This document shows, piece after piece, positions 5,101 to 35,210 of a stretch of DNA of 64,000 nucleotides. The stretch is from Nitrosomonas sp. (GTDB taxonomy: Bacteria > Pseudomonadota > Gammaproteobacteria > Burkholderiales > Nitrosomonadaceae). A program made the position numbers and the translations under genes. Location: NCBI GenBank assembly GCA_024281995.1, contig JAMWZW010000003.1, positions 178,591 through 242,590 on the forward strand, read 5' to 3'. Below the pieces are notes generated by a model. It did no database searches. It worked only from the letters and a program-made list of their open reading frames with translations, and had not been told where the DNA came from. How positions within the stretch are numbered: position 1 is the first letter of the stretch; every line of letters begins with the position of its first letter.

Positions 5101-7670
5101 AAGTACTACGTATTCGAGCATTACGCGGCCCCAATTTATGGAGCCAAAGTCCTTCTCTTGAAGTTACTATTCGTTGTAACGAATTTGGGAATGATATTAA
5201 CACTTTCTCCAGTATCGAAGAAAGGTTACGTGAGCATTGTCCAGAAATTTCTGCTTTGCTGGTTTCAGCCAGTAGTCAGCCTACTACTACGATTGCCCAT
5301 GTACTTGAACTTGCTACATTTAGTTTGCAGGTTCAAGCAGGTTGTCCAATATCGTTTAGTCAAACAGTAAAAGCTCCAGAAGCCAATACTTATAGAGTTG
5401 TTGTCGAATATAGTGAAGAAAAAGTTGGTCGCCTTGCTTTTGAATTAGCGCAATCATTATGTGATGCGGCTATCAAAAACGTCTCTTTTGAATTAGGTGA
5501 TGCTCTGCAGCGTTTACGTGAACTCAATGAAGATATACGTCTTGGGCCGAGTACAAATGCGATTGTTCAAGCTGCAGTTGCCCGCGATATTCCCTTTCGT
5601 CGCCTAACCGAAGGAAGTTTGGTGCAGTTTGGCTGGGGCAGTAAACAACGGCGTATTCAAGCATCTGAGAGCGATATGACCAGTGCTGTTGCAGAGTCCA
5701 TTGTACAAGATAAGGAATTGACCAAAATGCTGTTACATGCAGCCGGTATTCCTGTGCCCCTGGGACGTAATGTAAATAGCGCTGATGATGCTTGGTTAGC
5801 GGCTTCTGAAATTGGTACCCCGGTTGTTGTAAAGCCTCAAGATAGTAATCAAGGTAAGGGGGTAACGGTCAATCTAATCAATGCTGAGCAGGTTAGATCA
5901 GCCTATATGATAGCGGCCGAGTTCAGTGCTAAGGTTTTGGTTGAACGTTACCTGCCTGGTTGCGATTATCGAATGCTTGTCGTTGGTAACAAGCTGGTTG
6001 CGGCGGCGCGTCGTGAACCGCCGCAAGTAATTGGGGATGGGGTGCACAGTATTCGGCAATTAGTAGATCAGGTTAATCGTGATCCAAAACGTGGTGAAGG
6101 TCATGTTAGTTCATTAACTAAAATTAATTTGGATGAAATTTCATTAACACATTTAGCATCACAGGGATTAACAGCGCAATCCATTCCAGGAGAAAATGTG
6201 CGTGTTGTATTACGTAGCAATGCCAATTTGTCGACTGGCGGAACAGCAACTGATGTTACTGATGATGTTCATCCCGAATTGGCAAAGCGTGTGATTGCTG
6301 CTGCAAAAGTAGTGGGTTTAGATATCTGTGGTATTGACGTGGTTTGTGAAAATGTGGCACTTCCGCTAGAAGAGCAAGGAGGTGGTATTATCGAAGTAAA
6401 TGCTGCTCCTGGGTTACGTATGCATCTACACCCATCTTTTGGTAAAGGACGCGCTGTAGGTGAAGCCATCATTAGTAATATGTTTTCCGAGGAAGATAAT
6501 GCGCGCATCCCAGTTATCGCCGTGACCGGTACAAATGGCAAGACGACCACTGCTCGCTTGATTTCTGATATTTTGGATAAAGACAACAAACGAACGGGAC
6601 TTGCGTGTACCGATGGTGTATATATCAACGGTCAATGTATTGATACGGGTGATTGTAGTGGACCTAAAAGTGCTAGAAATATTCTCCTTCACCCAGATGT
6701 AGATGCAGCTGTCCTTGAGACTGCGCGAGGAGGGTTGTTACGTGAAGGTTTAGGTTTTGATCGTTGTGATGTTGCTGTCGTAACAAATATTGGTAAGGGT
6801 GATCATTTGGGGATGGCTTATGTCAATACTGCAGAAGAATTATCGGTTGTTAAACGAATTGTTGTCCAAAATGTAGCCTCAAGCGGCTTTGCTGTATTGA
6901 ATGCAGCCGATCCGCTTGTTGCACGTATGGCAGATCATTGTCTGGGTTCAGTTATATATTTTGCGCGTGATAGTCATCATCCCGTTATTGCATTACATCG
7001 TTTACAGCATAAGCGAGTTATCTTTTTAGAGAATCGCTGTATTGTGGCTTTAGGGAAAAATGAGGAGCATCGGTTACCCCTAAATGAGATACCACTGACA
7101 AAAAATGGTAGTATTGCTTTCCAAATTGAGAATGCGATGGCGGCTATTGGAGCAGGCTGGGCGCTTGGTTTGGACTGGTCAATTATTCGAGCTGGTTTAG
7201 CAAGCTTTGTCAACGATGCGCAGACAGCACCCGGTCGTTTCAACCTATTTAATTATCGTAATGCAACATTAATTGCTGATTATGGACATAATCCTGATGC
7301 TATACAAGCACTTGTAAGTGCTATTGATAATATTCCTTCGAAGAAACGCTCGGTAGTCATCAGTGCTGCAGGTGATCGACGTGACGAAGATATTCGTCAG
7401 CAAACTAAAATAATTGGAGATGCGTTTGATGAAGTTGTATTATATCAGGACCAATGTCAGCGTGGTCGTGCCGATGGAGAGGTATTAACATTGTTGCGAG
7501 AAGGATTAGGTAATGCAAAGCGTACGCAAAAAGTAAGTGAAATTATGGGAGAAGCTATTGCAATTGATAGAGCACTCTCAAACTTAGAAGATGGTGAACT
7601 ATGCCTTATTTTAGTTGATCAAGTAGAGCAGTCCCTTGGACAAATTAATAACCGTATAGCATTAGGTTAA
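5097..7670 (+). CDS. cphA: Cyanophycin synthetase CphA
   Basis: This 857-residue enzyme builds cyanophycin, the aspartate-backbone polymer with arginine side chains used as a nitrogen and carbon store, by two ATP-dependent ligations. It has the N-terminal domain (about 1-160), an ATP-grasp domain with 'VVVKPQDSNQGKGV' near residue 243 (aspartate addition) and a full Mur-ligase module: P-loop GTNGKTTT at residue 478, ETARGGLLREGLGF, 'TNIGKGDHLG', and the C-terminal domain starting near 'APGRFNLF' and 'ADYGHNPDA' (arginine addition). Length and motifs match active bacterial CphA. It is translationally coupled to cphA'. No cyanophycinase gene is seen downstream, so breakdown must be encoded elsewhere. 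Confidence 0.96.
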   Translation: MKVLRIRALRGPNLWSQSPSLEVTIRCNEFGNDINTFSSIEERLREHCPEISALLVSASSQPTTTIAHVLELATFSLQVQAGCPISFSQTVKAPEANTYRVVVEYSEEKVGRLAFELAQSLCDAAIKNVSFELGDALQRLRELNEDIRLGPSTNAIVQAAVARDIPFRRLTEGSLVQFGWGSKQRRIQASESDMTSAVAESIVQDKELTKMLLHAAGIPVPLGRNVNSADDAWLAASEIGTPVVVKPQDSNQGKGVTVNLINAEQVRSAYMIAAEFSAKVLVERYLPGCDYRMLVVGNKLVAAARREPPQVIGDGVHSIRQLVDQVNRDPKRGEGHVSSLTKINLDEISLTHLASQGLTAQSIPGENVRVVLRSNANLSTGGTATDVTDDVHPELAKRVIAAAKVVGLDICGIDVVCENVALPLEEQGGGIIEVNAAPGLRMHLHPSFGKGRAVGEAIISNMFSEEDNARIPVIAVTGTNGKTTTARLISDILDKDNKRTGLACTDGVYINGQCIDTGDCSGPKSARNILLHPDVDAAVLETARGGLLREGLGFDRCDVAVVTNIGKGDHLGMAYVNTAEELSVVKRIVVQNVASSGFAVLNAADPLVARMADHCLGSVIYFARDSHHPVIALHRLQHKRVIFLENRCIVALGKNEEHRLPLNEIPLTKNGSIAFQIENAMAAIGAGWALGLDWSIIRAGLASFVNDAQTAPGRFNLFNYRNATLIADYGHNPDAIQALVSAIDNIPSKKRSVVISAAGDRRDEDIRQQTKIIGDAFDEVVLYQDQCQRGRADGEVLTLLREGLGNAKRTQKVSEIMGEAIAIDRALSNLEDGELCLILVDQVEQSLGQINNRIALG

Positions 7671-12989: not shown

Positions 12990-14058
12990 ATGGATAACAA
13001 TCATCATGGCATTGTTGGAGGAGTGGATACCCACAAAGACCTTCATTTCGTGGCCATAGTCGACGCACATGACAGAGTTCTTGCCAGCAGTTCTTTCCCA
13101 ACAACGCGACAGAGTTATAAATCAATGTTGAATTGGATGCAATCCTTTGGTGAAGTCAAACGTATTGGTATAGAGTGTACAGGGACTTATGGTGCGGGTC
13201 TGCTAAGGTATTTGCAACAGTTCGATATCGAAATTTTAGAAGTTACCTCGCCTGACAAAACAGACCGACGCAAGCGCGGCAAAGACGACACAATCGACGC
13301 GGAAAATGCAGCCCATGCAGCATTCCCTGGAATACGCACCGTAACACCTAAAACTCGTGATGGTGGTGGAATCATTACGGGTTCTGAAGGTGTGCAGAGA
13401 AACCGCCATTGCAGCTCGCCGTATCGCACTGCAAATGATCCAAATGAATATTATTTCTGCACCAGAGTCAATTCGTGAGCCGTTGCGTACAATGACCCGC
13501 ATGCAATTAATCCGTAATCTTGCAGCCTGGCGGCCAGATCTGGGCGGATATCGTGATATTACGACTGCGTACAAAATTGCATTGAAATCACTTGCACGGC
13601 GATATCTGGAATTACATGATGAAATTGCGGATTTGGATGTAATGATCTCAGCCATTGTTGATGAACTTGCTCCCGATCTGATTGCGGCCAAAGCCATTGG
13701 ATATGAATCTGCTGCACAATTACTCATTACCGCTGGAGACAATCCAGAACGATTAAAGTCTGAGGCTAGCTTTGCGGCACTATGCGGTGTGAGTCCAATT
13801 CCAGCTTCATCAGGCAAGATCAATAGGCACAGGTTGAATCGTGGTGGTGATAGAGCAGCAAACAGTGCGCTGCATATTATTGCCATTGGGCGACTAAGAA
13901 CAGACAATACAACTAAAGAGTACGTTGAAAAACGTTTAACACAGGGCCACACGAAACTCGAAGCACTTCGATGCCTTAAACGCTATATTGCACGAGAGGT
14001 TTATTACATTCTGAGAAAACGCAATAATTTTATCAATAGTATTCAAATTGCCGCTTGA
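12990..14058 (+). pseudogene. IS110-family transposase, frameshifted
   Basis: This DEDD/serine recombinase-type transposase is split between two frames. The first 125 residues show 'GIVGGVDTHKD' (first Asp), 'RIGIECTGTYGAGLLRYL' (Glu) and 'KRGKDDTIDAENAAHA' (Asp pair). Near 13360, within GATGGTGGTGG, two bases appear to be missing compared with the family (RDG-MVES), and the text continues in the +1 frame: 'VESLRVLKVCRETAIAARRI', then the Tnp_20 domain 'ALCGVSPIPASSGKINRHRL', 'NRGGDRAANSALHIIAIGRL', to the stop at 14058. Unless the deletion is a sequencing error, the enzyme is inactive. Confidence 0.88.
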
Positions 14059-14565: not shown

Positions 14566-15699
14566 ATGCTTTTCTCTACTAATTTTTTCCAAATGGATAG
14601 AACAGTCAATCTCGATCCGCGCCCTAAAACTGAAAAAGCAAAATTGAAGCAAAAAAACAAACGCAATCTGATGCTTAATCAAAAACAGAAACTGCCGAAG
14701 CAATCGAGAAAAAAACAATCCATTCGATTTAAAAGAAAACTATTACTGACTGGCATCGAAATCCTCAGCTTAACTCTTACAATCGTCTTATTAATTATTG
14801 TATTACTCGGCTATTCTGCAAGTAGATTTTCAGGAACCAGTTTCTTTGGTAGCTTACTGCCATTTGCCGCCAGTATATTATTCTTTACTTTGCTTAGTTG
14901 TGTTTTTTTCATTGTTTGGTGGGAAATTAGGAAAAAATTACAGCTTTATTCTGAATTTTTGACTCCTATGTTATCGTTTTCATTTGTTTTATTGATCGCT
15001 TGGTTCATTACTATTGAACAAGCGACACTCGCTTATAGTAATTTTCGCACATTAATAGGAGGTAAAGAGGAAGCTGGACGGTTGTTAGTTACCCATCAAG
15101 TATATGCTGCATATCGTCGGCATACTGCATCTCAGCTACAAAAAATGATCAACCGCTCACAGGAATATCAGCAAGCTATTCAAGATGCAGCGAAGTCTTT
15201 TGAAATTGATACCCACATATTACAAGGTATTGCTGCAGCAGAGTCATCTTTTATACCAAGAAATAGTAGTGATGGCGGACGCGGTTTATTCCAAATCACG
15301 CAAGTTCCTGAGGCAGCCATACTGCAGGCGCATAAAAAACTTGGTACTGAAGCAATCTCTCTAGACAATCATCGGCACAACGCTTTTGTCGGAGCTGCCA
15401 CACTTAAACACTACCTGACAGAAACGAAAGGTGATCTTTTCTTAGCCTTGCTAGCCTATAACATGGGTCCAGCTAATGGAGGCCTACGTTCAATTATCCG
15501 GCAATATGAAGCTTCTGATTTCACTACCATTCAGCCGTATTTACAGACCCTACCACGTGACTACCCCATACGAGTATTATCTTATTCCTTGGCGTTTCGA
15601 CTATGGCAAGAAAAAGGCAAATTGCTCGCATACGAAGAAGGAAACAATGCGATTCAGATACAACGGATGGGTATACCAGGAATACATAGCGGTTTATGA
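14566..15699 (+). CDS. Membrane-anchored lytic transglycosylase (SLT domain)
   Basis: A 377-residue inner-membrane protein: a very basic N-terminus, three predicted membrane helices (about 60-82, 92-119, 132-150), then a periplasmic SLT domain that would cleave the MurNAc-GlcNAc bond of peptidoglycan. Seen motifs are 'GIAAAESSFIPRN' with catalytic Glu226, 'GGRGLFQIT', 'NAFVGAATLKHYL' and 'LALLAYNMGPANGG'. Its ATG lies only three bases from the divergent start of the dead DUF2130 gene, so either the promoters overlap or translation starts later, at Met10 (14593) or Met36 (14671); no Shine-Dalgarno sequence decides. Three helices before SLT is an unusual layout for the family. Confidence 0.85.
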   Translation: MLFSTNFFQMDRTVNLDPRPKTEKAKLKQKNKRNLMLNQKQKLPKQSRKKQSIRFKRKLLLTGIEILSLTLTIVLLIIVLLGYSASRFSGTSFFGSLLPFAASILFFTLLSCVFFIVWWEIRKKLQLYSEFLTPMLSFSFVLLIAWFITIEQATLAYSNFRTLIGGKEEAGRLLVTHQVYAAYRRHTASQLQKMINRSQEYQQAIQDAAKSFEIDTHILQGIAAAESSFIPRNSSDGGRGLFQITQVPEAAILQAHKKLGTEAISLDNHRHNAFVGAATLKHYLTETKGDLFLALLAYNMGPANGGLRSIIRQYEASDFTTIQPYLQTLPRDYPIRVLSYSLAFRLWQEKGKLLAYEEGNNAIQIQRMGIPGIHSGL

Positions 15700-16233: not shown

Positions 16234-16249
16234 TGGCGTGATTATTGCT
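16234..16249 (+). promoter_or_regulatory. Candidate sigma-54 (RpoN) promoter
   Basis: TGGCGTGATTATTGCT matches the -24/-12 consensus TGGCACG-N4-TTGCT, with GG (16235-16236) and GC (16247-16248) exactly 12 bases apart. Transcription would start near 16260, directly before the c-di-GMP riboswitch aptamer, which supports the assignment. Sigma-54 with the PrsK/PrsR two-component system is known to drive exosortase-associated polysaccharide genes in related bacteria. Confidence 0.65.
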
Positions 16250-16261
16250 TAATTAGTTTTG

Positions 16262-16357
16262 CAGTATGAAAAAGGCAAACTCTGCGAAAGCAGAGGACGC
16301 AAAGTCACTGATCTAATGGGCCCAGCCCTATGATGGCAGGACTGCCAGATAACGCAG
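16262..16357 (+). promoter_or_regulatory. Cyclic-di-GMP-I riboswitch (GEMM-I)
   Basis: The aptamer hallmarks are present in order: GGCAAAC (16274-16280), a perfect 6-bp stem CTCTGC/GCAGAG closed by a GAAA tetraloop (16280-16295), the conserved GACGCAAAG (16296-16304), a CACTGATCTAA strand, and the closing GGCAGGACTGCC hairpin (16335-16346) resembling the family's GCAGGGCUGCC. It lies in the leader of the secreted glycosidase-like gene. Downstream, TCCTT (16422-16426) can pair with AAGGA of the Shine-Dalgarno sequence (16436-16440), a possible translational on/off switch. Direction of control cannot be told from sequence. Confidence 0.9.
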
Positions 16358-16450
16358 CTCGTCTATTTACAAATTGACGAAAATCGAGCAATAAATCGAT
16401 ACACGTATCCGTGCAGTTCCGTCCTTTTAATTTTTAAGGAGGAATTAAAC

Positions 16451-17635
16451 ATGTACACCAATAATCAAGCATTACTGACAACCAGTGTGCTTTTGTCAAC
16501 CAGCATTAGCACTCACATACTTAAAGTAAGTATAAAAAGATTTCAGGTTTTCCTGATTACGTTATTGTGCTTAATTAGCGCGATCTTCATTAGCGGAAGT
16601 ACTGCGTATGCACAAACAACAACCCCACCAGTATCCACACCAGTAAAATGGCACCCAGGTCATTATTATTCACTCATGGACCATGGTAAAAACGCTTCTT
16701 GGTATCTCTCACAAGTATACAAAGAAATTCAAAGAACTCCAGCATTACGGGGAGTACACATTCGCTATTCTTGGGCAGAATTGGAAACATCGGAAGGGGT
16801 ATATAACTTCTCGGCTATTGCCAAACGTTTATCCGAACTTTCTGCGATTAATAAACGCCTTATTATTATGCTAGAGTTAAGAACATTTGATCCCACGGAA
16901 GAACTTGTTCCAGATTATATAAAAACAAGTAAATATGAAGGTGGAATTTTTGTTTATGACAGTTCAATCATTAGTAAACAAGGAAACAATATCAAACTAT
17001 GGAATCCTTATGTACGAGATCGGTTGATAGCGTTAATTAAAGCATTAGGAAATCGCTTTAACTCTAATGCTTATTTCGAGGGCATTGGTCTAACCGAAAC
17101 CGCCATTGGACAACCAGTGGTACCGCTCACCAGTGCTCAAACGGAAGGATATTACTCCAATTTAATTGTATTACAACAACAGATGCGTAAATCATTTCCT
17201 AATACAGTAACTTTTCAGTTTACAAATTTTCCAAGGTTAATTTTAGAATCATTTATTGGAGACTTGGAAACGATGGGCGCAGGTTTAGGTGGACCGGATA
17301 CTTTCATAGAAGATCCAGGACTTCATTATCCTCGAACCCCTCAAGGAGTCTATAATTACTATCCGCAATTATCTGGAGTTATACCTTTAACACCTTCTGT
17401 AATGTCAGGAAATTATAAAAATACCAGATCAGATGGAACAGGCTATCAACCCACAGTTTCAGAGCTGTTGACTTTTGCAAGAGATACGCTGAAAGCCAAT
17501 TATCTATTCTGGACACGTAACCCAGATTATTTTCCTGAGGTACTGGAATTGTTAAACATGAAAGACCAAAGAAGCACACTTTCAGGTGGATTAGATGAAA
17601 CTTGCCCTAGTTCCTATTCTTCATGCACAAATTAA
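16451..17635 (+). CDS. Secreted TIM-barrel glycoside hydrolase-like protein under c-di-GMP riboswitch
   Basis: A 394-residue protein with an excellent Shine-Dalgarno sequence (AAGGAGG, 8 bases from ATG). The long N-terminus ends in a signal peptide: basic stretch near residue 29, hydrophobic core 33-50, cleavage after 'STAYA' at about 54. The mature part has glycosidase barrel features: 'HIRYSWAELETSEGVYNFSA' near 103-122 (typical of GH5/GH42-like barrels), 'RLIIMLELRTF' and 'YFEGIGLTETAIG' with Glu216 as a candidate catalytic acid. No PEP-CTERM or other C-terminal anchor is seen. It probably acts on polysaccharide outside the inner membrane; substrate and activity are inference. It stands alone, before a terminator and a convergent exopolysaccharide gene set. 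Confidence 0.75.
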   Translation: MYTNNQALLTTSVLLSTSISTHILKVSIKRFQVFLITLLCLISAIFISGSTAYAQTTTPPVSTPVKWHPGHYYSLMDHGKNASWYLSQVYKEIQRTPALRGVHIRYSWAELETSEGVYNFSAIAKRLSELSAINKRLIIMLELRTFDPTEELVPDYIKTSKYEGGIFVYDSSIISKQGNNIKLWNPYVRDRLIALIKALGNRFNSNAYFEGIGLTETAIGQPVVPLTSAQTEGYYSNLIVLQQQMRKSFPNTVTFQFTNFPRLILESFIGDLETMGAGLGGPDTFIEDPGLHYPRTPQGVYNYYPQLSGVIPLTPSVMSGNYKNTRSDGTGYQPTVSELLTFARDTLKANYLFWTRNPDYFPEVLELLNMKDQRSTLSGGLDETCPSSYSSCTN

Positions 17636-17663: not shown

Positions 17664-17701
17664 GAATGAAGAACATGCCACCTAAAGCATGTTCTTCATT
17701 C
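17664..17701. terminator. Hairpin after glycosidase-like gene
   Basis: Perfect 15-bp stem GAATGAAGAACATGC / GCATGTTCTTCATTC with an 8-base loop, 29 bases after the stop. The tail is only moderately T-rich (CAATTAATTT). It may serve both this gene and the convergent gene set. Confidence 0.75.
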
Positions 17702-17985: not shown

Positions 17986-18906
17986 TCAAAGATCCCACGG
18001 TGTATTTTTAATGCCTACTAACACTTGCAACGCTCCAATACTTGGCAAATAATATTGTTTAAGTCTAAAGCGACTATCATCGGAAATTTTCTCGTACCCC
18101 TCTCTAGCCTCGTTAATTCTCTTGTATAAATTCACCAAGAGCTGTTTTAGCTTGGGTCTTTGTCGCAAGAAACGTTCAGATTTTACATTAAAACTAATCG
18201 CTGCCTTGTGCAACCATTTTATTCTACTTTCGTAGGTCGCATTAATTTTCTTATAGTTGTAGTCGTCAAAATAGTCTGGCGAAATATCAAGGAATTGACA
18301 TAGTTCATACATGAAGCTCACTATATCCCGATTCATATCTTCGAAAAACATTACCTTAATTTGTTCTTTCGGAAATTGTTGATAATAATACATAAGATAA
18401 TCGGCATAGCGACCGAAACTAATCACTTTTAAATACCATTCATCGATACCTAATTCCACAGGAGTTTTCTGACCGGAATCATAAGCAATACATTTATCAA
18501 TATATTCTTCGAAACTCAACCCTTTACTGAGATGTAAGTTTCCAACATGGAAATTAAATGATGAATATATGCGATCTATAGGATTCCTAAGAATAAACAG
18601 CAACTTAACATCGGGTATCATTGTATGAATACGTCTTGCAACTTCAACTCCGCTACCAAGATAACCCGGAGAAGCCTCCATTACTACCTTCGCTTGATGA
18701 GCACTATCACCAAAATATTTAGCATAACTTGCAATATCTTTTTCACGATCACCGGAATATGAATTTCGGAAGAAATCTGTTTCTTTGACAATAGAACCAC
18801 AAACCGAGGGATGCGCACTTAGATAGGTAAACACTGATGTTGTGCCAGCCTTTTCTGTACCGGCAATAATAAAATTAGCCAAACCAGTCGCACATTTTTC
18901 TTTCAT
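17986..18906 (-). CDS. Sulfotransferase domain protein (exopolysaccharide locus)
   Basis: A 306-residue PAPS-dependent sulfotransferase. The 5'-phosphosulfate loop is 'GTEKAGTTSVFTYL' (residues 16-29, Lys19) and the 3'-phosphate site is 'RNPIDRIYSSF' (107-117). 'MEASPGYL' follows the typical heparan-sulfotransferase-like pattern. It would transfer sulfate to a sugar hydroxyl, most plausibly on the polysaccharide made by the neighbouring genes. No signal peptide or membrane helix, so it acts in the cytoplasm. It is the last gene of the minus-strand cluster; 128 bases separate it from the WecG-like gene. Confidence 0.9.
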   Translation of the reverse strand: MKEKCATGLANFIIAGTEKAGTTSVFTYLSAHPSVCGSIVKETDFFRNSYSGDREKDIASYAKYFGDSAHQAKVVMEASPGYLGSGVEVARRIHTMIPDVKLLFILRNPIDRIYSSFNFHVGNLHLSKGLSFEEYIDKCIAYDSGQKTPVELGIDEWYLKVISFGRYADYLMYYYQQFPKEQIKVMFFEDMNRDIVSFMYELCQFLDISPDYFDDYNYKKINATYESRIKWLHKAAISFNVKSERFLRQRPKLKQLLVNLYKRINEAREGYEKISDDSRFRLKQYYLPSIGALQVLVGIKNTPWDL

Positions 18907-19034
18907 GTACTACACACCTTCTTCAAAAGCAGAGAATTAGATTTAATAATTCAAAAAGTAACGTTATATAACGTCTACTTAAGTATTTAATTAACTACAT
19001 ATAAAGAGCAAGATTAATCACAGTAATACGTTAG

Positions 19035-19814
19035 TTATTCCACGCTATTAATCAGCGATGTTTTTTGCAAAAATTCTTGGCCTCGCAAACGCCTCCATAA
19101 TAATCGAATGATGAAAACTGGATTACCTATTACGTAGCGCACAAACATTCTTCGTGGCTCAAGAATAAATCGAAATAACCATTCTAAACCTAGTTTGCGC
19201 ATTTGATAGGGGGCACGTGGCATCTCACCAGAATAAAAATCAAATAATGCTCCCACCCCAAGAATAACAGGTACGCAGATCTTATCAGCATTACGAGCAA
19301 TCCATAATTCCTGCATAGGTACTCCCATCGCCACGAAAAGGATCTGTGCATCACTCTCATTAATAGCTTTGATCACCTCCATTTCATTACTCGCATTAAA
19401 GTAACCATCATGAGTCCAGACAATATCTAAATTAGGAAACGATTTTTTCATATTGTCTGCACATCGCTGGGCAATTCCAGGGCGTGCTCCAAGCAAAGCT
19501 AACCTAATTCCTGAGTTTGCTGCATCGCGACAAACTAATGGAAACAGATCTGTTCCATTAACATTATCCTTAAGCGAAAAACCTGCCAACTTAGAAGCCA
19601 TCCGCATACCGCTGCCATCCGCGAATAACACTCCACCTCCCCTCTGTAATACACAAAAATAGTTAGCATTTACAGCGGCCATATTAACGCAATGAGCATT
19701 AACAAAATAAATCTTGCGTCGCAAACCTAACTGAGCATCGTGAACAATATTTGCACTTGCGTCAATTAATGTTGTATCTTCAATATTCAATCCAAATAAG
19801 AAAACGCGACTCAT
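19035..19814 (-). CDS. WecG/TagA/CpsF family glycosyltransferase
   Basis: This 259-residue GT26-type enzyme transfers a sugar, in known members ManNAc(A) or glucose, to an undecaprenyl-linked sugar. Seen are 'IYFVNAHCVNMAAVNANY', 'FADGSGMRMASKLAG', 'VNGTDLFPLV', 'LLGARPGIAQRCADNM', 'DIVWTHDGYF' and the typical C-terminal 'GVGALFDFYSGEMPRAPYQM' plus 'LGLEWLFRFILEPRRM'. It acts at the inner face of the inner membrane in repeat-unit assembly. The Asp and Thr/Asn residues of the active site region are present. The exact sugar cannot be told. Confidence 0.93.
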   Translation of the reverse strand: MSRVFLFGLNIEDTTLIDASANIVHDAQLGLRRKIYFVNAHCVNMAAVNANYFCVLQRGGGVLFADGSGMRMASKLAGFSLKDNVNGTDLFPLVCRDAANSGIRLALLGARPGIAQRCADNMKKSFPNLDIVWTHDGYFNASNEMEVIKAINESDAQILFVAMGVPMQELWIARNADKICVPVILGVGALFDFYSGEMPRAPYQMRKLGLEWLFRFILEPRRMFVRYVIGNPVFIIRLLWRRLRGQEFLQKTSLINSVE

Positions 19815-19868
19815 GATATATTTTTTATCTTGCAGTTATCAACGTCATGACCCAAACATTTATTACTA

Positions 19869-21017
19869 TCACTTATTAAGAATCGTATCATAAACATGAG
19901 CCACGCCCTGCGCCATACTATGATCTGAAAAGCTAGTCACCTGAAGTCGATAAGCTTCTTCACGAATTGTGCTCCACTTATATTTTCCATTTATCAATTC
20001 TACAAGTACATTAGTCAATTGCTCCGCATCACCTGGAGTAGTAATTAAACCGGTACGTCCGTGTTCCAATATCTCAGGAATTCCTTCTATATCTGATGCC
20101 ACTACTGGTACTCCCATCGCCATGGATTCCAAAATCACCATCGGCATACCCTCTCCGAAAAGGCTAGGTAAGACCAACACACTCATTTTATCAAACTCAG
20201 CATTCACATCTTTGGCAAAGCCAATCCAGTCAATGACATTTGAAACACCCAGATCCTCCGACATTTTTTTAATTGCTTTTTCGTATTCTATTGTCTCAAA
20301 TGGGCCTACTGCTCGCAGGCGTACAGTTTTTCCCATCTTGCACAAATTTGCTAACGCTTGAATCAAAACTTCCATACCTTTGCGTGGACGAAACAATGCT
20401 ACGCTTCCTATCACCCATTCAACATTTGGTTTAGATCGATTAGATAAGGGTCCAGGTGTTACTACCCCATTAGCTACCATATTTATTCGCGCTTCTGACC
20501 ATCCTTGTTTTTTCAAATAACACTCAAGACTCTTTGACACTGGGATCAAGCGCGCAACTCCAATAAGACTCAAGCGCTCCATAATTGCATTTTTGCGATT
20601 TCGCCAGACACTTTCGGTATCGCGTGTAGTAGGACTATGTACATGATGCACGAGTGGCACACCAGCCAACCAAGCCGCTATTCTTCCCACTAAAACCGCT
20701 CGAGGAGTATGCGTATGCAACAGAACATATCCATCTCGCCTTATAATACGCGCAATCTCCCACGCTGGCGCCAAATCATATTTCGATTTCATACCTAACT
20801 CGAATAATGGCCCAGTAGAATTGCGGCAAGCTGAAAACTTCTCTGGTTTAACACACGCAAAACTCACTTCATACCCATAATCAGGCAAACGCAGCGCCAA
20901 AACATCTTGTACTCGCTCTGCACCGGAGAAAAATTCTCCATTGATAACGTGCATAATTTTTGTCTTCTTTTCACTAGCGTTCATAGTAGAGTGTATAGTT
21001 AAAAAAGCTTTTGGCAA
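19869..21017 (-). CDS. Glycosyltransferase family 4 protein
   Basis: A 382-residue GT-B fold enzyme. The N-terminal acceptor domain has 'IMHVINGEFFSGAERVQDVL' (glycine-rich loop) and 'YVLLHTHTPRAVLVGRIAAW'; the C-terminal donor domain shows 'VIGSVALFRPRKGMEVLIQA' and the EX7E region 'GEGMPMVILESMAMGVPVVA' followed by 'SDIEGIPEILEHGRTG'. It would add a nucleotide-activated sugar to the lipid-linked repeat. The first codon in frame is TTG at 21017; ATG at 20984 (MNASEKKTK) is an equally good start. Upstream lie about 317 bases without genes. Confidence 0.93.
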   Translation of the reverse strand: MPKAFLTIHSTMNASEKKTKIMHVINGEFFSGAERVQDVLALRLPDYGYEVSFACVKPEKFSACRNSTGPLFELGMKSKYDLAPAWEIARIIRRDGYVLLHTHTPRAVLVGRIAAWLAGVPLVHHVHSPTTRDTESVWRNRKNAIMERLSLIGVARLIPVSKSLECYLKKQGWSEARINMVANGVVTPGPLSNRSKPNVEWVIGSVALFRPRKGMEVLIQALANLCKMGKTVRLRAVGPFETIEYEKAIKKMSEDLGVSNVIDWIGFAKDVNAEFDKMSVLVLPSLFGEGMPMVILESMAMGVPVVASDIEGIPEILEHGRTGLITTPGDAEQLTNVLVELINGKYKWSTIREEAYRLQVTSFSDHSMAQGVAHVYDTILNK

Positions 21018-21334
21018 ATCGAACTCTCACGCATTAAAATAAATACTGAAAACAGATAACATATATAAATTCTAATTGGAGAAGCAAAATTCAGTTAACT
21101 TTACGATGACTTGCACTGAATTCTAAGCGGATTAACACTATTCTTTTGTCGTTTAGCTAGATCAATATCAATTATGTAGCTAAATGTAACGTTTATCACA
21201 TCTGGTAAAAACAAATTTCATATTAATCAGTGTCATGGCAATTCTATCACGCAATTTTCAAATTATTACTTTCAAAAGTTTATCTTAAATTCTCAAAATC
21301 CAATTCTAGCTTAGCATCGCTTCTAACTGCGTTA
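21018..21334. other. Non-coding gap in the polysaccharide cluster
   Basis: 317 AT-rich bases between the glycosyltransferase and the flippase gene. No frame, repeat or convincing promoter seen; it probably holds the promoter of the downstream glycosyltransferase gene. Confidence 0.4.
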
Positions 21335-22855
21335 TCAATTCTTCCATACAAAAGGATTAAGAAGATAAGCACGACGCCGCAATCCGCGGCCTAATAATGC
21401 CCTATCATACTGATTTAATGGCTTTGCTAACATTAGCCCTGGTACATATCCTAGCAATACCGCGGCCAACCCCCACCATATCCCTAGTTTATCTCCAATT
21501 ATTAAACCCAGAACTGCTAATAGCGCAGCTATACCAATACCCCGACAAATACCAAACCAATCCAACTTCATACTCCCAGCTTGATGATTTAACCACGTCA
21601 GAGTAAGACTATTTAACAGCCAAACAGACAATAAAACCCCGCAAACTACCCCGATCAACCCCCAATTTGAGCCATAAATTACTGCTAATGGTGTTAGCAC
21701 AGACAAAAAACTAAAATATCTCAACTGGCGGGTGTAAGGATATATTTGCATGATCATAATAACCATTTGTCCCTGGCTCGTAGCACCCAAGCTTAACAAC
21801 ATAATAAGCATTATTATTCCAGCGTTCTCAAACCTCCCGTCACTTGCAATTGAAATAAGAGAATCGCCTGCTACAATGATTGTTACTACACAAATAGCGA
21901 TGACAAGTAGATTGCTCTTCCATAACAATGCCATGCCTTGTTTAACTGCATCAATTTCTCCTGCCACATACCGAGAAATTAGCATAGGCCGAATAACATT
22001 TCCTAATAACCTGGCTGGCAAATAGCGTGCAACCATGAATAGTAGTTGTTGAATAAAGGCAAACATCCCTGCCGCTTCAAGCCCTAATGTGCGTGCCACA
22101 AGAATACGTAGCGTACCCGCATTTGCAGCAGCCTGGAGTAAATTAACACCTGCCATGTGCCATGCAAAATTTAATATCTCATTTTTTTTTAGCTTAAGAT
22201 TACCTTTATCTGGCATTATCCGCAGTTTTTTTATTAAGAAAAATTCGGCTAATAAAAGACATCCAAGTGAAACAATCAAATCTACCCAAAGTAAATACTC
22301 TAGTGTTAGATGCTGGGTAACCATTAGTATAGTTATTCCAATCAATCGCCCAAACGGCATAAGTGCTTGAGTCAATTGTGACCATCGTTGCTCCAGCAGG
22401 CACTCGAGCATTTCTGCGACAAAGCGAAATCCAAGAACAGTAATAATCAACCCGACTGCGAGCAAATTAGCATTCTGCTGGGGCATATCAAAACCCACCC
22501 ATGTAGCAATATCCGCCCAAAAATAAGCAATGAGCACTGCCCAAATTGCCGTAAGGGCAAATCTAATTAGCATCATCCAGCGAACAAATTGAATCGCGTC
22601 ACTTGATGCCCCTTTTGCGGCCAACTCCGGTAAATAGCGTCGCACTGCTTCCAGCATTCCCAATGAGCTTAGCGGTACCATCATTTCTATCATTCCCCAC
22701 AATACCATGTACGTACCATAATCTATGGGCATTAACAAACGTACCAGCCACAACGTAAGAATGAAAGATGCAATCGCTTGTGCAGTCCGCCCTAACAGAA
22801 AATGTTGGATAGCTTGACGAAAACGTTTACCAGAATAAGGATTGGGATTATTCAA
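21335..22855 (-). CDS. Polysaccharide flippase, Wzx-like (MOP/PST superfamily)
   Basis: A 506-residue integral membrane protein with 12-14 hydrophobic segments across its whole length. The start 'KRFRQAIQHFLLGRTAQAIA' and 'PIDYGTYMVLWGMIEMMVPL' and the 'YLPELAAKG' loop are typical of oligosaccharide flippases, which carry undecaprenyl-linked repeat units across the inner membrane. 'LNFAWHMAGVNLLQAAANAG' opens the second half. It begins only five bases after the upstream glycosyltransferase stop, so the pair is co-transcribed. Together with the O-antigen-ligase-like gene at 27510 it points to a Wzx/Wzy-type pathway. Confidence 0.9.
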   Translation of the reverse strand: MNNPNPYSGKRFRQAIQHFLLGRTAQAIASFILTLWLVRLLMPIDYGTYMVLWGMIEMMVPLSSLGMLEAVRRYLPELAAKGASSDAIQFVRWMMLIRFALTAIWAVLIAYFWADIATWVGFDMPQQNANLLAVGLIITVLGFRFVAEMLECLLEQRWSQLTQALMPFGRLIGITILMVTQHLTLEYLLWVDLIVSLGCLLLAEFFLIKKLRIMPDKGNLKLKKNEILNFAWHMAGVNLLQAAANAGTLRILVARTLGLEAAGMFAFIQQLLFMVARYLPARLLGNVIRPMLISRYVAGEIDAVKQGMALLWKSNLLVIAICVVTIIVAGDSLISIASDGRFENAGIIMLIMLLSLGATSQGQMVIMIMQIYPYTRQLRYFSFLSVLTPLAVIYGSNWGLIGVVCGVLLSVWLLNSLTLTWLNHQAGSMKLDWFGICRGIGIAALLAVLGLIIGDKLGIWWGLAAVLLGYVPGLMLAKPLNQYDRALLGRGLRRRAYLLNPFVWKN

Positions 22856-22860
22856 ATTGT

Positions 22861-24084
22861 TTATCCCAGCAATTCTTTGTATTTTGATTCCACCAAATCA
22901 GCTATCACGTCGTATGTACGGTTCGCTTTTACCCACTCGGGACCTTTTGCTGCCATTATCCGTGCACATTCTGGGTCATTTAATAAGTGACAAACCTCAT
23001 CGGCGAAAGCTTGTTCGCTCCATGGAATACATCTTCCCACTCCACTTGCTTCCACTACCTCTCCTTGCTCAGGATGTTCATTGGCCACAATGCACTTAGC
23101 CATTGCCATGTATTCGATGAGTTTGGTAGGTGAGGTAGATAATAAAACAGGAGTCGGGTAAAAAGGAGAAAAACATATATCTGCACGCCTCACTAATTGC
23201 CACGCTTCATCCATAGGCAAGAAGCCTGTAATGGTTACGGCATCTAACAATCCCAATCGTGATGCCTCTTCTTCCACCGCCTTTCGATCACTTGGTAATT
23301 GACCATCACCCACATATAATAAACGGGCAGCAGGATAAAATACCCGTACTCGCTGCAGTACTCGCACTAGCATTTCTGAATGGCGTAACTTCATAATAAT
23401 GCCAAGATGAAGTAAAAGAGGGGCATTTGTGTTTGGTGCAACAGCATCTTCTGCTTTCCCTACTTGATTAGTTCGAATACCCATTGGAACAGAAGTCATT
23501 TTAGTAGGTGAGATACCTTCGTGTGTTACATCTTTCTTCATACGTTCACTCTGAACAAAGATATGATCTGCTCGTGGCAAAATTACCTTATAGAGTAAAA
23601 CTCGAATAACTTGTCCTTTTAACCAAACCAAACGATGATTAGGTACGAGCCTATTTTTAGCTTGATATAATTTGGATTCAGCAAATGGATAAGACATCCA
23701 ATAGATAAAACGGGCGTTTGTCAATCGAGCAGCTAACCAAGCTATTAAACCAGCAAAAAACTTGTCCCTTACCTGAATTACGCTGTACTGACCTTTAAAG
23801 GCAAGGGGAAGAATCATTAAATCTCCCCACATACCCAATAAGTTATTTAGTATCCTCCCCAATAATCCTTTATATCTACTTCGAGGTGTAAGGTAAACTA
23901 TATTATCTAACCAATTTGTTGGCGTAGATAAACTCAATACTTCCGGTCCTCTCTGCATTAGCCAATCAATTTGATGACCTCTTGCTGGCATTTGTATAGC
24001 AAATAATTCCACTACATCTGCCCGAAATGGCGGGAAAGTATCTTCTACTACGTAAAGCATTTTCATAGTAGTTCCACTACTCAT
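22861..24084 (-). CDS. Glycosyltransferase family 4 protein
   Basis: A 407-residue GT-B enzyme. Seen: 'LYVVEDTFPPFRADVVELFA' at the N-terminus, 'YSVIQVRDKFFAGLIAWLAA', the Rossmann donor domain 'PLLLHLGIIMKLRHSEMLVR', 'RLLYVGDGQLPSDRKAVEEE' and the C-terminal 'FSPFYPTPVLLSTSPTKLIE' with 'YMAMAKCIVANEHPEQGEVV' in the nucleotide-sugar-binding E-X7-E position. Codon 7 (ATG) could also be the start. It stands directly upstream of the flippase gene, with a five-base gap. Confidence 0.92.
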   Translation of the reverse strand: MSSGTTMKMLYVVEDTFPPFRADVVELFAIQMPARGHQIDWLMQRGPEVLSLSTPTNWLDNIVYLTPRSRYKGLLGRILNNLLGMWGDLMILPLAFKGQYSVIQVRDKFFAGLIAWLAARLTNARFIYWMSYPFAESKLYQAKNRLVPNHRLVWLKGQVIRVLLYKVILPRADHIFVQSERMKKDVTHEGISPTKMTSVPMGIRTNQVGKAEDAVAPNTNAPLLLHLGIIMKLRHSEMLVRVLQRVRVFYPAARLLYVGDGQLPSDRKAVEEEASRLGLLDAVTITGFLPMDEAWQLVRRADICFSPFYPTPVLLSTSPTKLIEYMAMAKCIVANEHPEQGEVVEASGVGRCIPWSEQAFADEVCHLLNDPECARIMAAKGPEWVKANRTYDVIADLVESKYKELLG

Positions 24085-25342
24085 CTTTGATAAAAGCTCA
24101 ATGTATTAACATAAAAAAACTGCATGCTCATTTATTATCACCAAAAAAGTTAAAAAGAAACACACCGTTTATCTTAGAAAATGGCATGCATTTATATCAC
24201 CACATTTCTGGAGCTTGGTTCATTAAACAAGAAAAACTTAATTCCATCTACTTTTATAGGCTTATAAACTGAGTTAAACAAAAATCTTCCTGCCACTCAC
24301 TTTCAGTCACCTAATATATATACTATAAATAATGCAGCGCCTACAAAAGATGAAAGTGAGGCACATTCTCCTTTTTCATCCAACTTATAACTTTTTCAAG
24401 ATATGATATTAGAATTAACCTAATCGATGATTCAAAAATCACACTATCTACGTATAAATAAAGCCCCGCATGACAAGCAGCAGAGTATTTAACCACGCTT
24501 TTCAATGAAGTAGTTTTCAACCACTTTTCGCTTCAAGAGGCAGGAATAGAATCTGTGCAAAGATTAACGCTAATAAATTTCTCTCTCTTAACACCGCATT
24601 CCCAGAATAAATCCAGTGATGAAACAATGCCATACGTGAGATGTTGAATAAATGAATGTACATAAAAATTTTATTACTAATCGGGAAGTATTAAGTTCGT
24701 AAGAAATATAATTAATCATAAATTAAATTACTTCCAGCAAAACGAGAAGCTTATTTTTGTTAGCCCTTAAAGGAGAAAGAGCTAACAATGCAGTTTTAAG
24801 GAAGCATCCAACATCAGGTTTGAGTTAATCATAATTATCGTCTTCATTCTCTGGTTACGAATGTATTATTTCCGTACCATCTCTTTATTAAATCCAACAG
24901 TTGATACAAAAAACCTTGTGCTCAGAAATTATCACCTGTAAAGTTATTCACCTTGCCCATAAATTGCCGCACTATATAAATCATACTCTTTGCTTTGATA
25001 TAACCTATTTATGCGCTACCAAATATTTCGGTGATAGACTTTATGCATATGATCTAGCATCAAGCCCGTTTCTAATGCTTGGTACTCCTTTTGACTCCGA
25101 TGCATCATGCAGCTCTTTCCTTAGATACTTACGCATCCCTCAAATATTACCTTCTTCTACTTCATTGAAATAAAAGCAGCATGGTACTTGCGGCCTCATG
25201 TCGTGGGCATCAGTCTCTGGTAATCTCTCATTCGATTCTCCTAGCTCTTGGTCAAGCTAAAAAAATCAAGGTGGCCGCTCCTCTCAGTGAAACCTTTAGC
25301 AACCTTCGGATATAGCCGGAAGATTACCTTATTTATACACAC
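24085..25342. other. 1.26-kb gene-free region with IS5-type relic
   Basis: No credible gene. The stretch 24816-24885 matches 36449-36515 at roughly 80% (shared TATCGTCTTC...ATGTATTATT...CCATCTCTT), which at the second site is the leader and start of an IS5-type transposase remnant. After it come only stops in every frame. The rest is AT-rich and unrecognised; two segments resemble eroded coding sequence but could not be assigned. Confidence 0.55.
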
Positions 25343-26260
25343 CTATATACTTGAACAAAAATTCCAACGTTCCAAAGTCTCTTGTTGTATATCAAGTACC
25401 ATCTTCAATTCCGCTTCCGTCCAATTACGAGCCCATGCTTCCTGCTTTGGAGAAAGATGCAAAGATTCAATAGTACCCCAAAACGAAGCATTGTTTTTTG
25501 CAGTAATTCCCATAAAATCCAAGATACGTTGTAGCTGTTCACGTGGATTACTTAATAATTCATCATAGCGAACCTCTAATAACAGGCCACCATCAATTAA
25601 TGCAGTTCCTTGCTCCAAGGACTGCATTTCCTCTACCCAATTCTGCGCTGCGAGTTCCAATGGATTAAAACCATCCCTCATCATCTGTTGAGGTGTTTTA
25701 CCGGTCCAATACAAAATATGGTCATTCCACCATGCTACCCGTAGTAAAGAATAAGCAACTGCACGCCCATCTCTGATTAAATGAATAAACTTTGCATCAG
25801 GAAAAATTTTCTTGAGGAGCGGTATTCGGCGATTATTAGCCGTACGCTTAGTCAACAGCACTTCTCCACGAGAAGCCTGACGAATACGCTCAAATTTGTC
25901 TTCCAAGCATTGAGCTATTTGTTGTTGAAAAGAATAATCAGCAACCAGTGTTAAAGGAATACCACAACTAGTATATACTGATTCTGCCTCTGATGGGGTG
26001 GGCACAATAGAGTGCAGCCAATCACGTCTCTCGTTGAAGTAAGCCCCCCCCTCTTTTTTAAACCAAGTTCGACGTTTATATTCTGGAAACTGATTAAGTA
26101 TATAATGCAAATAAGACAAAAGCGGCCAATTAGGAAAAGTTTTTTGGTAATTACTTAAATACGCCACACTCTGATGAACAGATAGTATCTTATATAATAA
26201 TGTAGTCCCTGAACGCCCCGCTCCTAAAAGAAACACTACGCTATTTTCCTTTTTGCTCAT
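25343..26260 (-). CDS. Sulfotransferase family protein
   Basis: A 305-residue PAPS-dependent sulfotransferase of a different subgroup from the other two here. Its 5'-phosphosulfate loop is 'LLGAGRSGTTLLYKILS' (residues 11-27; Arg in place of Lys as in Stf0/TPST-like members) and the 3'-phosphate site is 'IHLIRDGRAVAYSLLRVAWW' near 155-175. 'FQQQIAQCLEDKFERIRQAS' and 'LLEVRYDELLSNPREQLQRI', 'LDFMGI' are typical C-terminal features. Likely sulfates the polysaccharide or a cell-surface component. It follows the sulfotransferase at 26382-27260 by 121 bases. Confidence 0.9.
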   Translation of the reverse strand: MSKKENSVVFLLGAGRSGTTLLYKILSVHQSVAYLSNYQKTFPNWPLLSYLHYILNQFPEYKRRTWFKKEGGAYFNERRDWLHSIVPTPSEAESVYTSCGIPLTLVADYSFQQQIAQCLEDKFERIRQASRGEVLLTKRTANNRRIPLLKKIFPDAKFIHLIRDGRAVAYSLLRVAWWNDHILYWTGKTPQQMMRDGFNPLELAAQNWVEEMQSLEQGTALIDGGLLLEVRYDELLSNPREQLQRILDFMGITAKNNASFWGTIESLHLSPKQEAWARNWTEAELKMVLDIQQETLERWNFCSSI

Positions 26261-26381
26261 GATTCCCTTTAAGATATACGTCTTAACATACTGTTTATTA
26301 TTGTTGCTATTCCATATTGCCTTACAGTAGTATTTCCTAAAAATAAAATTGCATTAGATGACAATATCATAATCAATATTC

Positions 26382-27260
26382 TTATCTTGTGTTAGTTTTA
26401 TCGTGTAATGCGCGCCAGCTTGGCCACGGCAAATTCTCTAGATCGAGTTGTCGGGCCAGTTCATGCATATCATCAGCCAACATACACTGTAACCGTACCT
26501 TCGTTTCATCACGCATTGGTGGAACAATTTGACGTAAGTCAATCTGGTTATGTTTACGTCGCATGTGACGAACTAAGTTGGTTTTCTTGATGGTTTCAAT
26601 TATGTCACCAACCCCTGCCGATCTACCCAATTTCCCTAATCGCTTCAGCAAATAATCTACTTTTGTATGCTTTATCACTAAACTCTCATTTACTTTTTTC
26701 TCCAGAAACCAGGATTGATGATCTTCTGAAACACCTAAGAAACGGTACAAGTTTCGTGCTTGAACAGAGGAATCACCACGAATATCCTCCTGAAAAATCA
26801 CCATTAATTGATTGCGGGGAAACACAGCTAACCAACGTGCAAGCTGCTGCGCATAATACGATTGCATTAAATACATGGGATTATTCATTAGTCCGTTCTC
26901 GAATTCCAAATTCCGTCCACTTACATGACCAAGTCTTACCTCATGCAAATGATTTGAATATGCCCGCTCTATCGGATCCCGAAGCGAAAGTACTATTTTC
27001 ATATTTGGATTATAAAGAAACACGCGTTCAGGCGTTTCAACATCCGCAAAATATGAAGGAGATACCTCTCCTACCATTTCTGCAGAATTAATCTCACTAG
27101 TATGCCGCTCATACCATTCATATCCAAAATTATAATAATAAGAGAAGAAATCAATCTCTTTTCCAGGAAGAACTGCTACCCCTGGATGATCGGAGAGAAC
27201 ACGATGCACCCATGTAGATGCACATTTCTGCGCACCAATACCTATAAAATTAATTTTCAC
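26382..27260 (-). CDS. Sulfotransferase domain protein
   Basis: A 292-residue heparan-sulfotransferase-like enzyme with 'FIGIGAQKCASTWVHRVLSD' (PAPS 5' loop, Lys12) and 'VLSLRDPIERAYSNHLHEV' (3' site, residues 90-108). 'VGEVSPSYFAD' holds the conserved Glu-x-Ser-Pro-x-Tyr stretch of the family. No signal peptide. With the genes at 17986 and 25343 it makes three sulfotransferases in one polysaccharide cluster, a strong hint that the product is sulfated at several positions. Confidence 0.9.
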   Translation of the reverse strand: MKINFIGIGAQKCASTWVHRVLSDHPGVAVLPGKEIDFFSYYYNFGYEWYERHTSEINSAEMVGEVSPSYFADVETPERVFLYNPNMKIVLSLRDPIERAYSNHLHEVRLGHVSGRNLEFENGLMNNPMYLMQSYYAQQLARWLAVFPRNQLMVIFQEDIRGDSSVQARNLYRFLGVSEDHQSWFLEKKVNESLVIKHTKVDYLLKRLGKLGRSAGVGDIIETIKKTNLVRHMRRKHNQIDLRQIVPPMRDETKVRLQCMLADDMHELARQLDLENLPWPSWRALHDKTNTR

Positions 27261-27509
27261 ATTGACAACCTTTCTATAAACAAAAGCATAAACTTAATAT
27301 CAGCGGGGCAAATCCAAGATTAAGAAGTAATTTCAATGAATGTAGAACTTCAAATTTTTAAGTAATTATTTTTTAAATGTTTTACTGCACCCAATACTGC
27401 ATAATTTAGCAATTATATAGAGCATTTTTTTGCTTAAAGTTTTGAGTCCTTACGGTAAATTTAATATTTTATAATTTAAAAACAACATACTAAATAATAA
27501 AAACTATTC

Positions 27510-29036: not shown

Positions 29037-29109
29037 AACTATTTAACATCAAAACTAACACAATGAAATAACATTTAGAATTCAATAAGCTACTTTAGTT
29101 AAGCAATTT

Positions 29110-29799: not shown

Positions 29800-29895
29800 T
29801 CTCTCTTTTTCTTAATCTGAAATAAAATCTAATTCCATTATTTACAAATTTATTATTAAAAATAATTTCTACTAAAAAAGTGATTTAATCCAACA

Positions 29896-30792: not shown

Positions 30793-30806
30793 AGTAAAGT
30801 TACCAA

Positions 30807-31715: not shown

Positions 31716-31724
31716 TCTTTTTTC

Positions 31725-35139: not shown

Positions 35140-35210
35140 AAATTATCCATTTGCTCACAATTTTACATATCAATTATTCTATTAGAAACCTTCCTACGAT
35201 TAATGAAATC

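Follow-up and report, generated by a model that had tools for sequence, protein, structure and literature searches.

Class I riboswitches for cyclic diguanosine monophosphate (c-di-GMP) have been described in front of genes for secreted carbohydrate-active proteins. The Vc1 c-di-GMP-I riboswitch on gbpA of Vibrio cholerae acts positively (PMC4744006), and in Aeromonas hydrophila a c-di-GMP-I riboswitch lies upstream of a putative chitinase gene (PMC6366702). Here we analysed a 64,000-nucleotide (nt) stretch of a Nitrosomonas sp. genome (assembly GCA_024281995.1, contig JAMWZW010000003.1, positions 178,591 to 242,590 of the forward strand; hereafter the window), in which an aptamer of the same class precedes a gene for a glycosidase-like, probably secreted (β/α)8 barrel protein beside a gene cluster for a predicted sulfated exopolysaccharide (EPS). 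Whereas the Vibrio and Aeromonas systems concern chitin or N-acetylglucosamine surfaces, the neighbour here is the cell's own EPS cluster, the switch is predicted to be OFF, and the protein belongs to another family. Our favoured reading, which we see about as much reason to believe as to doubt, is that the riboswitch translationally controls a secreted carbohydrate-active barrel that would act on the sulfated EPS of the adjacent cluster.

Other described systems share single aspects of this arrangement. In Clostridioides difficile, functional class I switches are reported to be uniformly OFF, and the protein ZmpI (PPEP-1) releases the cell's own c-di-GMP-induced surface proteins (PMC6366702). 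The ZmpI system differs in joining a protease to transcription termination, in place of the glycosidase-like barrel and Shine-Dalgarno hairpin found here. The zmpI gene is itself reportedly under a class I switch. In V. cholerae, RbmB breaks down the polysaccharide of the cell's own matrix during dispersal, in likeness to the action proposed here, and the RbmB paper never uses the word riboswitch (PMC7768729). RbmB, as well as PslG and PelA of Pseudomonas aeruginosa, are different from or distantly related to the window barrel, PslG giving a faint sequence match to the barrel family (E 0.68). All three are said to be encoded with their EPS genes. Our literature search, which covered titles and abstract openings and left subscription papers mostly uncovered, found no case of an enzyme gene under a c-di-GMP switch next to the EPS locus of the same cell, and nothing relevant on c-di-GMP riboswitches together with Nitrosomonas or with glycoside or glycosyl hydrolases. 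Within the literature searched, both the genus-wide coupling of the riboswitch to this barrel family next to a locus for a predicted sulfated EPS and the use of one shared leader on different enzymes thus appear to be new.

The leader matches the Rfam covariance model RF01051 (c-di-GMP-I, or GEMM-I, riboswitch) at positions 16264–16349 of the plus strand with 83.6 bits (E 5.3e-15), against a gathering score of 35 bits, and over model positions 1–87 of 87. This is the sole RF01051 match in the window's own genome (2.88 Mb, 21 contigs), and a search of 14 control genomes gave zero matches. The RF01051 alignment contains each of the hallmarks from which the initial annotation had recognised a GEMM-I aptamer: GGCAAAC, a 6-bp P2 capped by GAAA, GACGCAAAG, and GGCAGGACTGCC. 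The GACGCAAAG junction columns are invariant or at least 90% conserved across 26 aligned aptamers, P2 is GNRA-capped, and G11 and G12 are invariant (26/26). One or the other of these guanines may be the base at which a G in place of an A distinguishes c-di-GMP from cyclic AMP-GMP. The genome contains 26 matches to GGDEF and 21 to EAL, 20 of the EAL matches exceeding the cut-off, so this organism very probably makes c-di-GMP. On this sequence evidence, positions 16264–16349 are almost certainly a working c-di-GMP aptamer. A chance match to the aptamer model was also considered, and was rejected on the 83.6-bit score.

Between the aptamer and the start codon lies a Shine-Dalgarno-covering hairpin (16413–16444). 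Three plus-strand elements make up the putative expression platform: element 1 (GGACTGC, 16339–16345), in the aptamer 3′ strand; element 2 (GCAGTTCC plus GTCCTT, 16413–16426), the anti-Shine-Dalgarno strand, which is also complementary to element 1; and element 3 (AAGGAGGAA, 16436–16444), the Shine-Dalgarno region, which pairs with element 2 in the shut form. The segment 16408–16455 has a folding energy of −13 kcal/mol (z −3.2), a value that 1 of 200 shuffles also reached. The elements were sought in 99 leaders and found in 46 (34 of the barrel family and 12 of other genes), the 53 without them all belonging to other genes; the leader L025, whose aptamer is weak (34 bits), was excluded from these analyses. 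Among 31 distinct leaders, 90.0% of hairpin cells are paired, compared with 62.2 and 62.3% after one-column slides, and four pairs have changed on both sides, against a shuffled mean of 1.3 (5 of 500 shuffles as high). A pairing that could hide the Shine-Dalgarno sequence had been proposed from the letters of the leader, and both the folding energy and the covariation among relatives bear it out. The window hairpin, identical in the locus L002, has an energy of −10.4 kcal/mol, which becomes −5.5 kcal/mol when the 8 nt at the 5′ end of element 2 are left out. Energies lie between −9.1 and −16.0 kcal/mol in 28 of the 31 distinct leaders (−3.8, −5.2, and −7.9 in the remaining three), and between −2.8 and −7.9 kcal/mol once those 8 nt are removed.

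The conservation of element 2 points to a second partner. Across 34 leaders GCAGTTCC is nearly invariant, with GCAGTT conserved as G in 32, C in 34, A in 33, G in 34, T in 34, and T in 34, and the three bases directly 5′ of it are more variable. In the window-type fold of the hairpin, the first G and the C are unpaired; over the aligned leaders, the A is paired in 14 of 29 cells and the second G in 31 of 31. Near-invariance of bases that the hairpin leaves unpaired or little paired therefore suggests another partner, and the TGC of the aptamer strand fits. GCAGTTCC is complementary to GGACTGC with one bulge, and its two pairings cannot fully coexist. In the 46 leaders with the elements, all five tested pairs between elements 1 and 2 are present in 36, four in 8, and three in 2. 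The duplex has an energy of −11.1 kcal/mol in the window. Compared with shuffled sequences, its median rank over 34 leaders is 7 of 200, with 10 of 200 or fewer in 21 of the 34, a moderate signal, and its probability in full-ensemble folding is as high as 0.79 in two leaders. Elements 1 and 2 both hardly vary, which leaves little room for covariation between them. Since the complementarity of GCAGTTCC extends to the aptamer strand as well as the Shine-Dalgarno side, the logic would be that of a translational OFF switch: action on translation is likely, and we lean towards c-di-GMP turning translation OFF. A transcription terminator in the leader was considered as the switch and set aside, as the scan listed no plus-strand terminator between aptamer and gene.

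The controlled gene (16451–17635, plus strand) encodes a protein of 394 aa. Its N-terminus (residues 1–54, 16451–16612) resembles a Sec signal peptide with a long N-region and a hydrophobic stretch ending in AYA, as judged by eye, so the protein is probably exported. The AlphaFold2 model of the mature part, built from an alignment of 93 sequences, is a (β/α)8 barrel (predicted local distance difference test score 95.4, predicted template modelling score 0.93), in keeping with the exported TIM-barrel enzyme that had been read from the translation. This alignment (A1) was obtained from 113 distinct full-length proteins, of which 104 were not near-identical and 93, including the window protein, were retained. 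Closest named relatives are in Nitrosomonas, with 93% identity in L002. Among the best 50 Foldseek rows (E 3.6e-9 to 1.1e-7, identity 7–13%), the nearest solved structures are beta-amylases and GH35 and other beta-galactosidases, together with an alpha-galactosidase, BlMan5B, and a GH164 mannosidase. At the sequence level, the family profile matches GH35 enzymes over residues 15–101 only (E 1.7e-4), and the Pfam GH42 family (PF02449) is matched at E ≤0.1 by 74 of the 93 relatives (best 4.9e-6); the window protein itself has no Pfam match up to E 10, GH42 included. The barrel thus shares with GH35 and GH42 beta-galactosidases and GH14 beta-amylase the (β/α)8 fold and a glutamate after strand 4, with GH35 also the strand-2 region and the N-terminal sequence match confined to residues 15–101 of the model, and with GH42 an N-terminal sequence match. 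It differs from all three in its 7–13% identity and in having no glutamate at strand 7.

Of the 93 aligned sequences, 92 or all 93 retain each of the residues E112, E210, E216, and D283, and conservation is equally high for several Trp, Arg, Asn, and Gln at strand ends. E216 (codon 17096–17098, plus strand; Glu in 92/93), after strand 4, is the candidate acid/base, and D283 (codon 17297–17299, plus strand; Asp in 92/93), at the end of strand 6, is the candidate second carboxylate. The defining feature of clan GH-A is a nucleophile glutamate where strand 7 ends. In our alignment, position 260, directly after strand 7, is Met in 56 rows, including the window protein, Glu in 30, Gln in 6, and Lys in 1. 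Because the window protein has Met and not Glu there, we assign it to neither GH-A nor GH14. Of the candidate catalytic glutamates proposed earlier, E210 and E216 (each 92/93) stand, but strand 7 of the window protein has none at its end. The catalytic pair of the barrel could be E216 and D283, or the protein could have a binding role instead; catalytic activity is, in our judgement, reasonably probable. The exchange among Glu, Met, Gln, and Lys at position 260 is accompanied by a change at position 223 near strand 6, a possible sign, from the alignment, of a change of catalytic mechanism within one family.

A terminator-like hairpin (17664–17701, plus strand) follows the riboswitch gene, which therefore looks monocistronic. 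Beyond it, on the opposite strand, lies the polysaccharide cluster (17986–36173) that had been noted at the outset and that family searches confirm. Its last gene, convergent with the riboswitch gene, encodes a sulfotransferase (17986–18906, minus strand; PF00685, E 8.5e-18). Next come, on the same strand (19035–29036), genes for a WecG/TagA/CpsF transferase, two glycosyltransferases, and two more sulfotransferases, together with two open reading frames (ORFs) without a Pfam match that appear by eye to encode multi-membrane proteins. The core (29110–36173, minus strand) comprises EpsI of type B, the exosortase XrtB, EpsG, EpsF, EpsE, and EpsD, all six over their NCBIfam cut-offs, which makes this an XrtB/Eps locus. 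An MshE-type c-di-GMP-binding motif is predicted at the N-terminus of EpsG (residues 31–82; 31470–31625, minus strand; NF053729, 44.3 bits, cut-off 38). With its three sulfotransferase genes, the cluster is predicted to make a sulfated polysaccharide. Control of this cluster by the riboswitch was rejected, since the cluster lies on the other strand, convergent, and a terminator-like hairpin follows the riboswitch gene. Also near the riboswitch gene is a lytic-transglycosylase-like gene (14566–15699; SLT domain, membrane segments by eye), and such a gene is likewise found at L002, L003, L070, and L077.

The barrel family was searched for in 125 genomes of the bacterial family and is present in 36, many copies occurring in some (up to 14 matches per genome). 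Homologues of the neighbouring sulfotransferase (E ≤1e-60) occur in 23 of the 125 genomes, and all 23 carry the barrel family (hypergeometric 3e-16, uncorrected for kinship). In 16 of the 23, a barrel copy lies within 10 kb of the sulfotransferase, nine with and seven without an aptamer; in three of the other seven genomes, the sulfotransferase is no more than 2 kb from where its contig starts. At eight named loci besides the window (L003, L007, L011, L020, L027, L045, L054, and L077), the aptamer-led gene stands amid cluster genes, and at L034 and L038 a barrel copy without an aptamer lies inside the cluster.

Pairing of aptamer and barrel gene, scored when an aptamer lay within 900 nt upstream on the same strand, was counted for the 150 barrel copies among the matches listed, which come from 32 of the 36 positive genomes. 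An aptamer precedes 37 of these 150 copies, in 27 of the 32 genomes, so the leader–gene pairing recurs among relatives. Across the family genomes, 76 RF01051 places were listed, 12 of which, outside the genus, were left out of the pairing; for the 68 aptamers without a barrel copy behind them, the DNA was examined for 65 and 3 were left out. On a tree of 97 rows (the 93 of A1 plus four paralogs from the window genome), the 27 aptamer-led rows require 12 changes, against a shuffled mean of 23.8 (0 of 500 shuffles as low), and the pairing is therefore clustered yet was gained or lost many times. The barrel family also occurs in Nitrospira and Niabella, and none of the nine Nitrospira rows of the tree is aptamer-led.

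Tandem aptamers stand before six of the 37 aptamer-led copies (in G007, G030, G033, G097, G115, and G116). Tandem c-di-GMP-I riboswitches are known, with 347 doublets counted in one study (PMC9481103). The present arrangement differs from those doublets in four leaders (L021, L022, L017, and L030), whose first unit keeps its own hairpin, Shine-Dalgarno sequence, and ATG, and in which an ORF of 5–6 codons (MNIIP, MNIIPQ, or MNIILR) precedes the second aptamer. In the tandem first units, element 1 is GGACCGC or GGGCCGC, giving four of the five tested pairs.

These results suggest a scheme in which one signal would act on both sides of the matrix. With c-di-GMP bound, the aptamer would retain GGACTGC, and GCAGTTCC would be available to form the hairpin that covers AAGGAGGAA, so that translation would stop. 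As c-di-GMP falls, GGACTGC would pair with GCAGTTCC, weakening the hairpin from about −10 to about −5 kcal/mol and opening the leader. At low c-di-GMP, the enzyme would thus be made and exported, and would trim or loosen the sulfated matrix; at high c-di-GMP, the polysaccharide would be made, presumably via EpsG, and translation of the enzyme would be shut. Because EpsG has a predicted c-di-GMP-binding motif, making and breaking of the polysaccharide could be oppositely driven by one signal. That the barrel acts on the cell's own polysaccharide is, in our estimate, fairly probable. The initial annotation had likewise read the locus as coupling c-di-GMP to remodelling of the cell's own polysaccharide by a glycosidase. 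The riboswitch, the probably exported barrel, and the link to the cluster (23/23 genomes; 16/23 within 10 kb) agree with that reading, but the assignment as a glycosidase is weakened by the missing strand-7 carboxylate in the window copy.

Several observations weigh against this scheme. In the window, 19 of 200 shuffles are as low in energy as the duplex of elements 1 and 2, and the ensemble probability of this duplex is 0.01. Mean access of the window Shine-Dalgarno sequence is 0.02, in the whole leader and in the post-aptamer part alike, and the open state is not predicted; whole-leader folding gives an access below 0.25 in 33 of 34 leaders. Since whole-leader folding yields no open state, the OFF prediction comes from complementarity and conservation, not from ensemble energies. 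Judged from the alignment and the predicted strands, strand 7 of the window protein does not end in a carboxylate. Among the 150 listed barrel copies, 113 have no listed aptamer, some of them at contig ends, and these include 7 of the 16 near a sulfotransferase. The genomes are related, so the counts are not independent; one of the 23 sulfotransferase matches (in G020) is only 39% identical; and XrtB is common in genomes without the barrel family.

How the switch is wired is one point on which other explanations differ. The leader could instead be an ON switch: c-di-GMP would make the ribosome site accessible, and maturation or remodelling of the matrix by the enzyme would take place during biofilm building, as Vc1 activates gbpA. 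The positive action of Vc1 (PMC4744006) gives this a precedent, regulatory attributes are reported not to be extrapolable between species (PMC6366702), and thermodynamic folding without ligand shows no open state. Element 2 is, however, complementary to both the aptamer strand and the Shine-Dalgarno side, for which the simple logic is OFF, although no search for an inverting element was made, and we regard an ON switch as unlikely but a serious contender. A leader that no longer switches, its aptamer being a relic, has a parallel in C. difficile, where functional class I elements are reported to number only 7 out of 12 (PMC6366702). The high score, the conserved letters of the ligand pocket, and the conserved, covarying expression platform across many genomes make a relic very improbable here.

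The remaining explanations concern what the protein does. If it were a secreted pseudo-glycosidase that binds the sulfated polysaccharide, the riboswitch would tune the stickiness of the matrix. The window Met at position 260 suits this view, as does the distribution of Glu there, found in 30 of the 93 rows and in only 3 of the 27 aptamer-led ones; yet E112, E210, E216, and D283 are kept together with the Trp, Arg, Asn, and Gln residues, resembling an active site with another acid pair, and a non-enzymatic role seems to us unlikely. Degradation of a foreign polysaccharide, for nutrition or competition, would make the position beside the EPS cluster accidental. Proximity in 16 of 23 genomes and not in all, the many copies elsewhere, and the presence of the family in Nitrospira and Niabella are compatible with such a role. 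It is countered by the sulfotransferase co-occurrence (23/23), the cluster genes around the aptamer-led gene at eight named loci, and the lifestyle of ammonia oxidisers, which grow on CO2 and ammonia, and we consider it quite unlikely.

Many aptamers that do not precede a barrel gene lead other proteins with export signals at their N-termini, some of the downstream ORFs being unnamed. The ten representative non-barrel proteins that were scanned, two of which (L185 and L194) come from another genus of the bacterial family, include two subtilases, a reprolysin-like and a serralysin-type RTX metalloprotease, three PEP-CTERM proteins, a beta-helix protein with a carbohydrate-binding domain, a protein with a marginal PD40 match alone, and a protein of 449 aa that weakly matches a polysaccharide-lyase family (PF14099, E 5.6e-5, under its cut-off). 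From these annotations, the c-di-GMP-I class here seems to serve matrix and exoprotein genes. Five leaders of possible lyases (L141 and L143–L146) share the GCAGTTCC hairpin of the window. Most leaders of protease and PEP-CTERM genes (L186, L159, L176, L189, L168, and the loci grouped with them) lack the GCAGTTCC elements, and another expression platform is therefore likely in these. Unrelated proteins led by the switch seem to have long N-termini of similar look.

One genome, G022, joins the shared leader to a different enzyme. It keeps the EpsD–EpsI core (63–80% identity), and its contig has no match to the three window sulfotransferases at E 1e-10. The sugar part has instead a UDP-glucose dehydrogenase and a heparinase II/III-like gene, a contrast that on the window side covers the scanned ORFs only, and a possible lyase gene with the same riboswitch leader lies at the far end of the XrtB-cluster contig. 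This is a single case, in which the possible lyase has no Pfam match at 0.01 (the weak PF14099 match is in the homologue L144 only) and two distant barrel-family matches are present (best E 5.6e-14). A plug-in cassette could tentatively be proposed, although we doubt it more than we credit it: across Nitrosomonas, the same riboswitch and ribosome-site hairpin would be joined to whichever secreted enzyme fits the local EPS, with c-di-GMP turning making on and the breaker off. The barrel without a second catalytic glutamate would then go with the sulfotransferase cluster, and the lyase-like protein with a uronic-acid dehydrogenase cluster, the latter pair in one case.

Release of cells from their own matrix is known mainly in Vibrio and Pseudomonas, and under our favoured reading an RNA that senses c-di-GMP would directly govern this release. 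Nitrosomonas oxidises ammonia in soils and wastewater biofilms, and the pairing, present in 27 of the 32 genomes for which barrel copies were listed, offers many natural variants. For an uncharacterised barrel family, the locus provides a guessable substrate, the predicted sulfated EPS of the same locus. If the reading is true, the leader could be used as a c-di-GMP reporter in ammonia oxidisers and the enzyme against nitrifier biofilm.

Further observations were made on barrel copies and on the window. Two of the four other barrel copies in the window genome each lie some 3.4 kb from a gene with an EAL domain (411-aa frame) (loci G000:C11:101370-102077 and G000:C19:29087-29794; L139 and L137). 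A further copy in this genome (L138:5544-7286) lies directly behind an alginate-export-type porin (PF13372, E 8e-114) in a polysaccharide setting. The barrel copy on a Saprospiraceae-binned contig (L067) groups inside the Nitrosomonas clade, and the contig is probably misbinned. Elsewhere in the window are an IS110-type transposase in two overlapping frames (12990–14058), probably a split copy, and two consecutive cyanophycin-synthetase-like genes (2782–7670).

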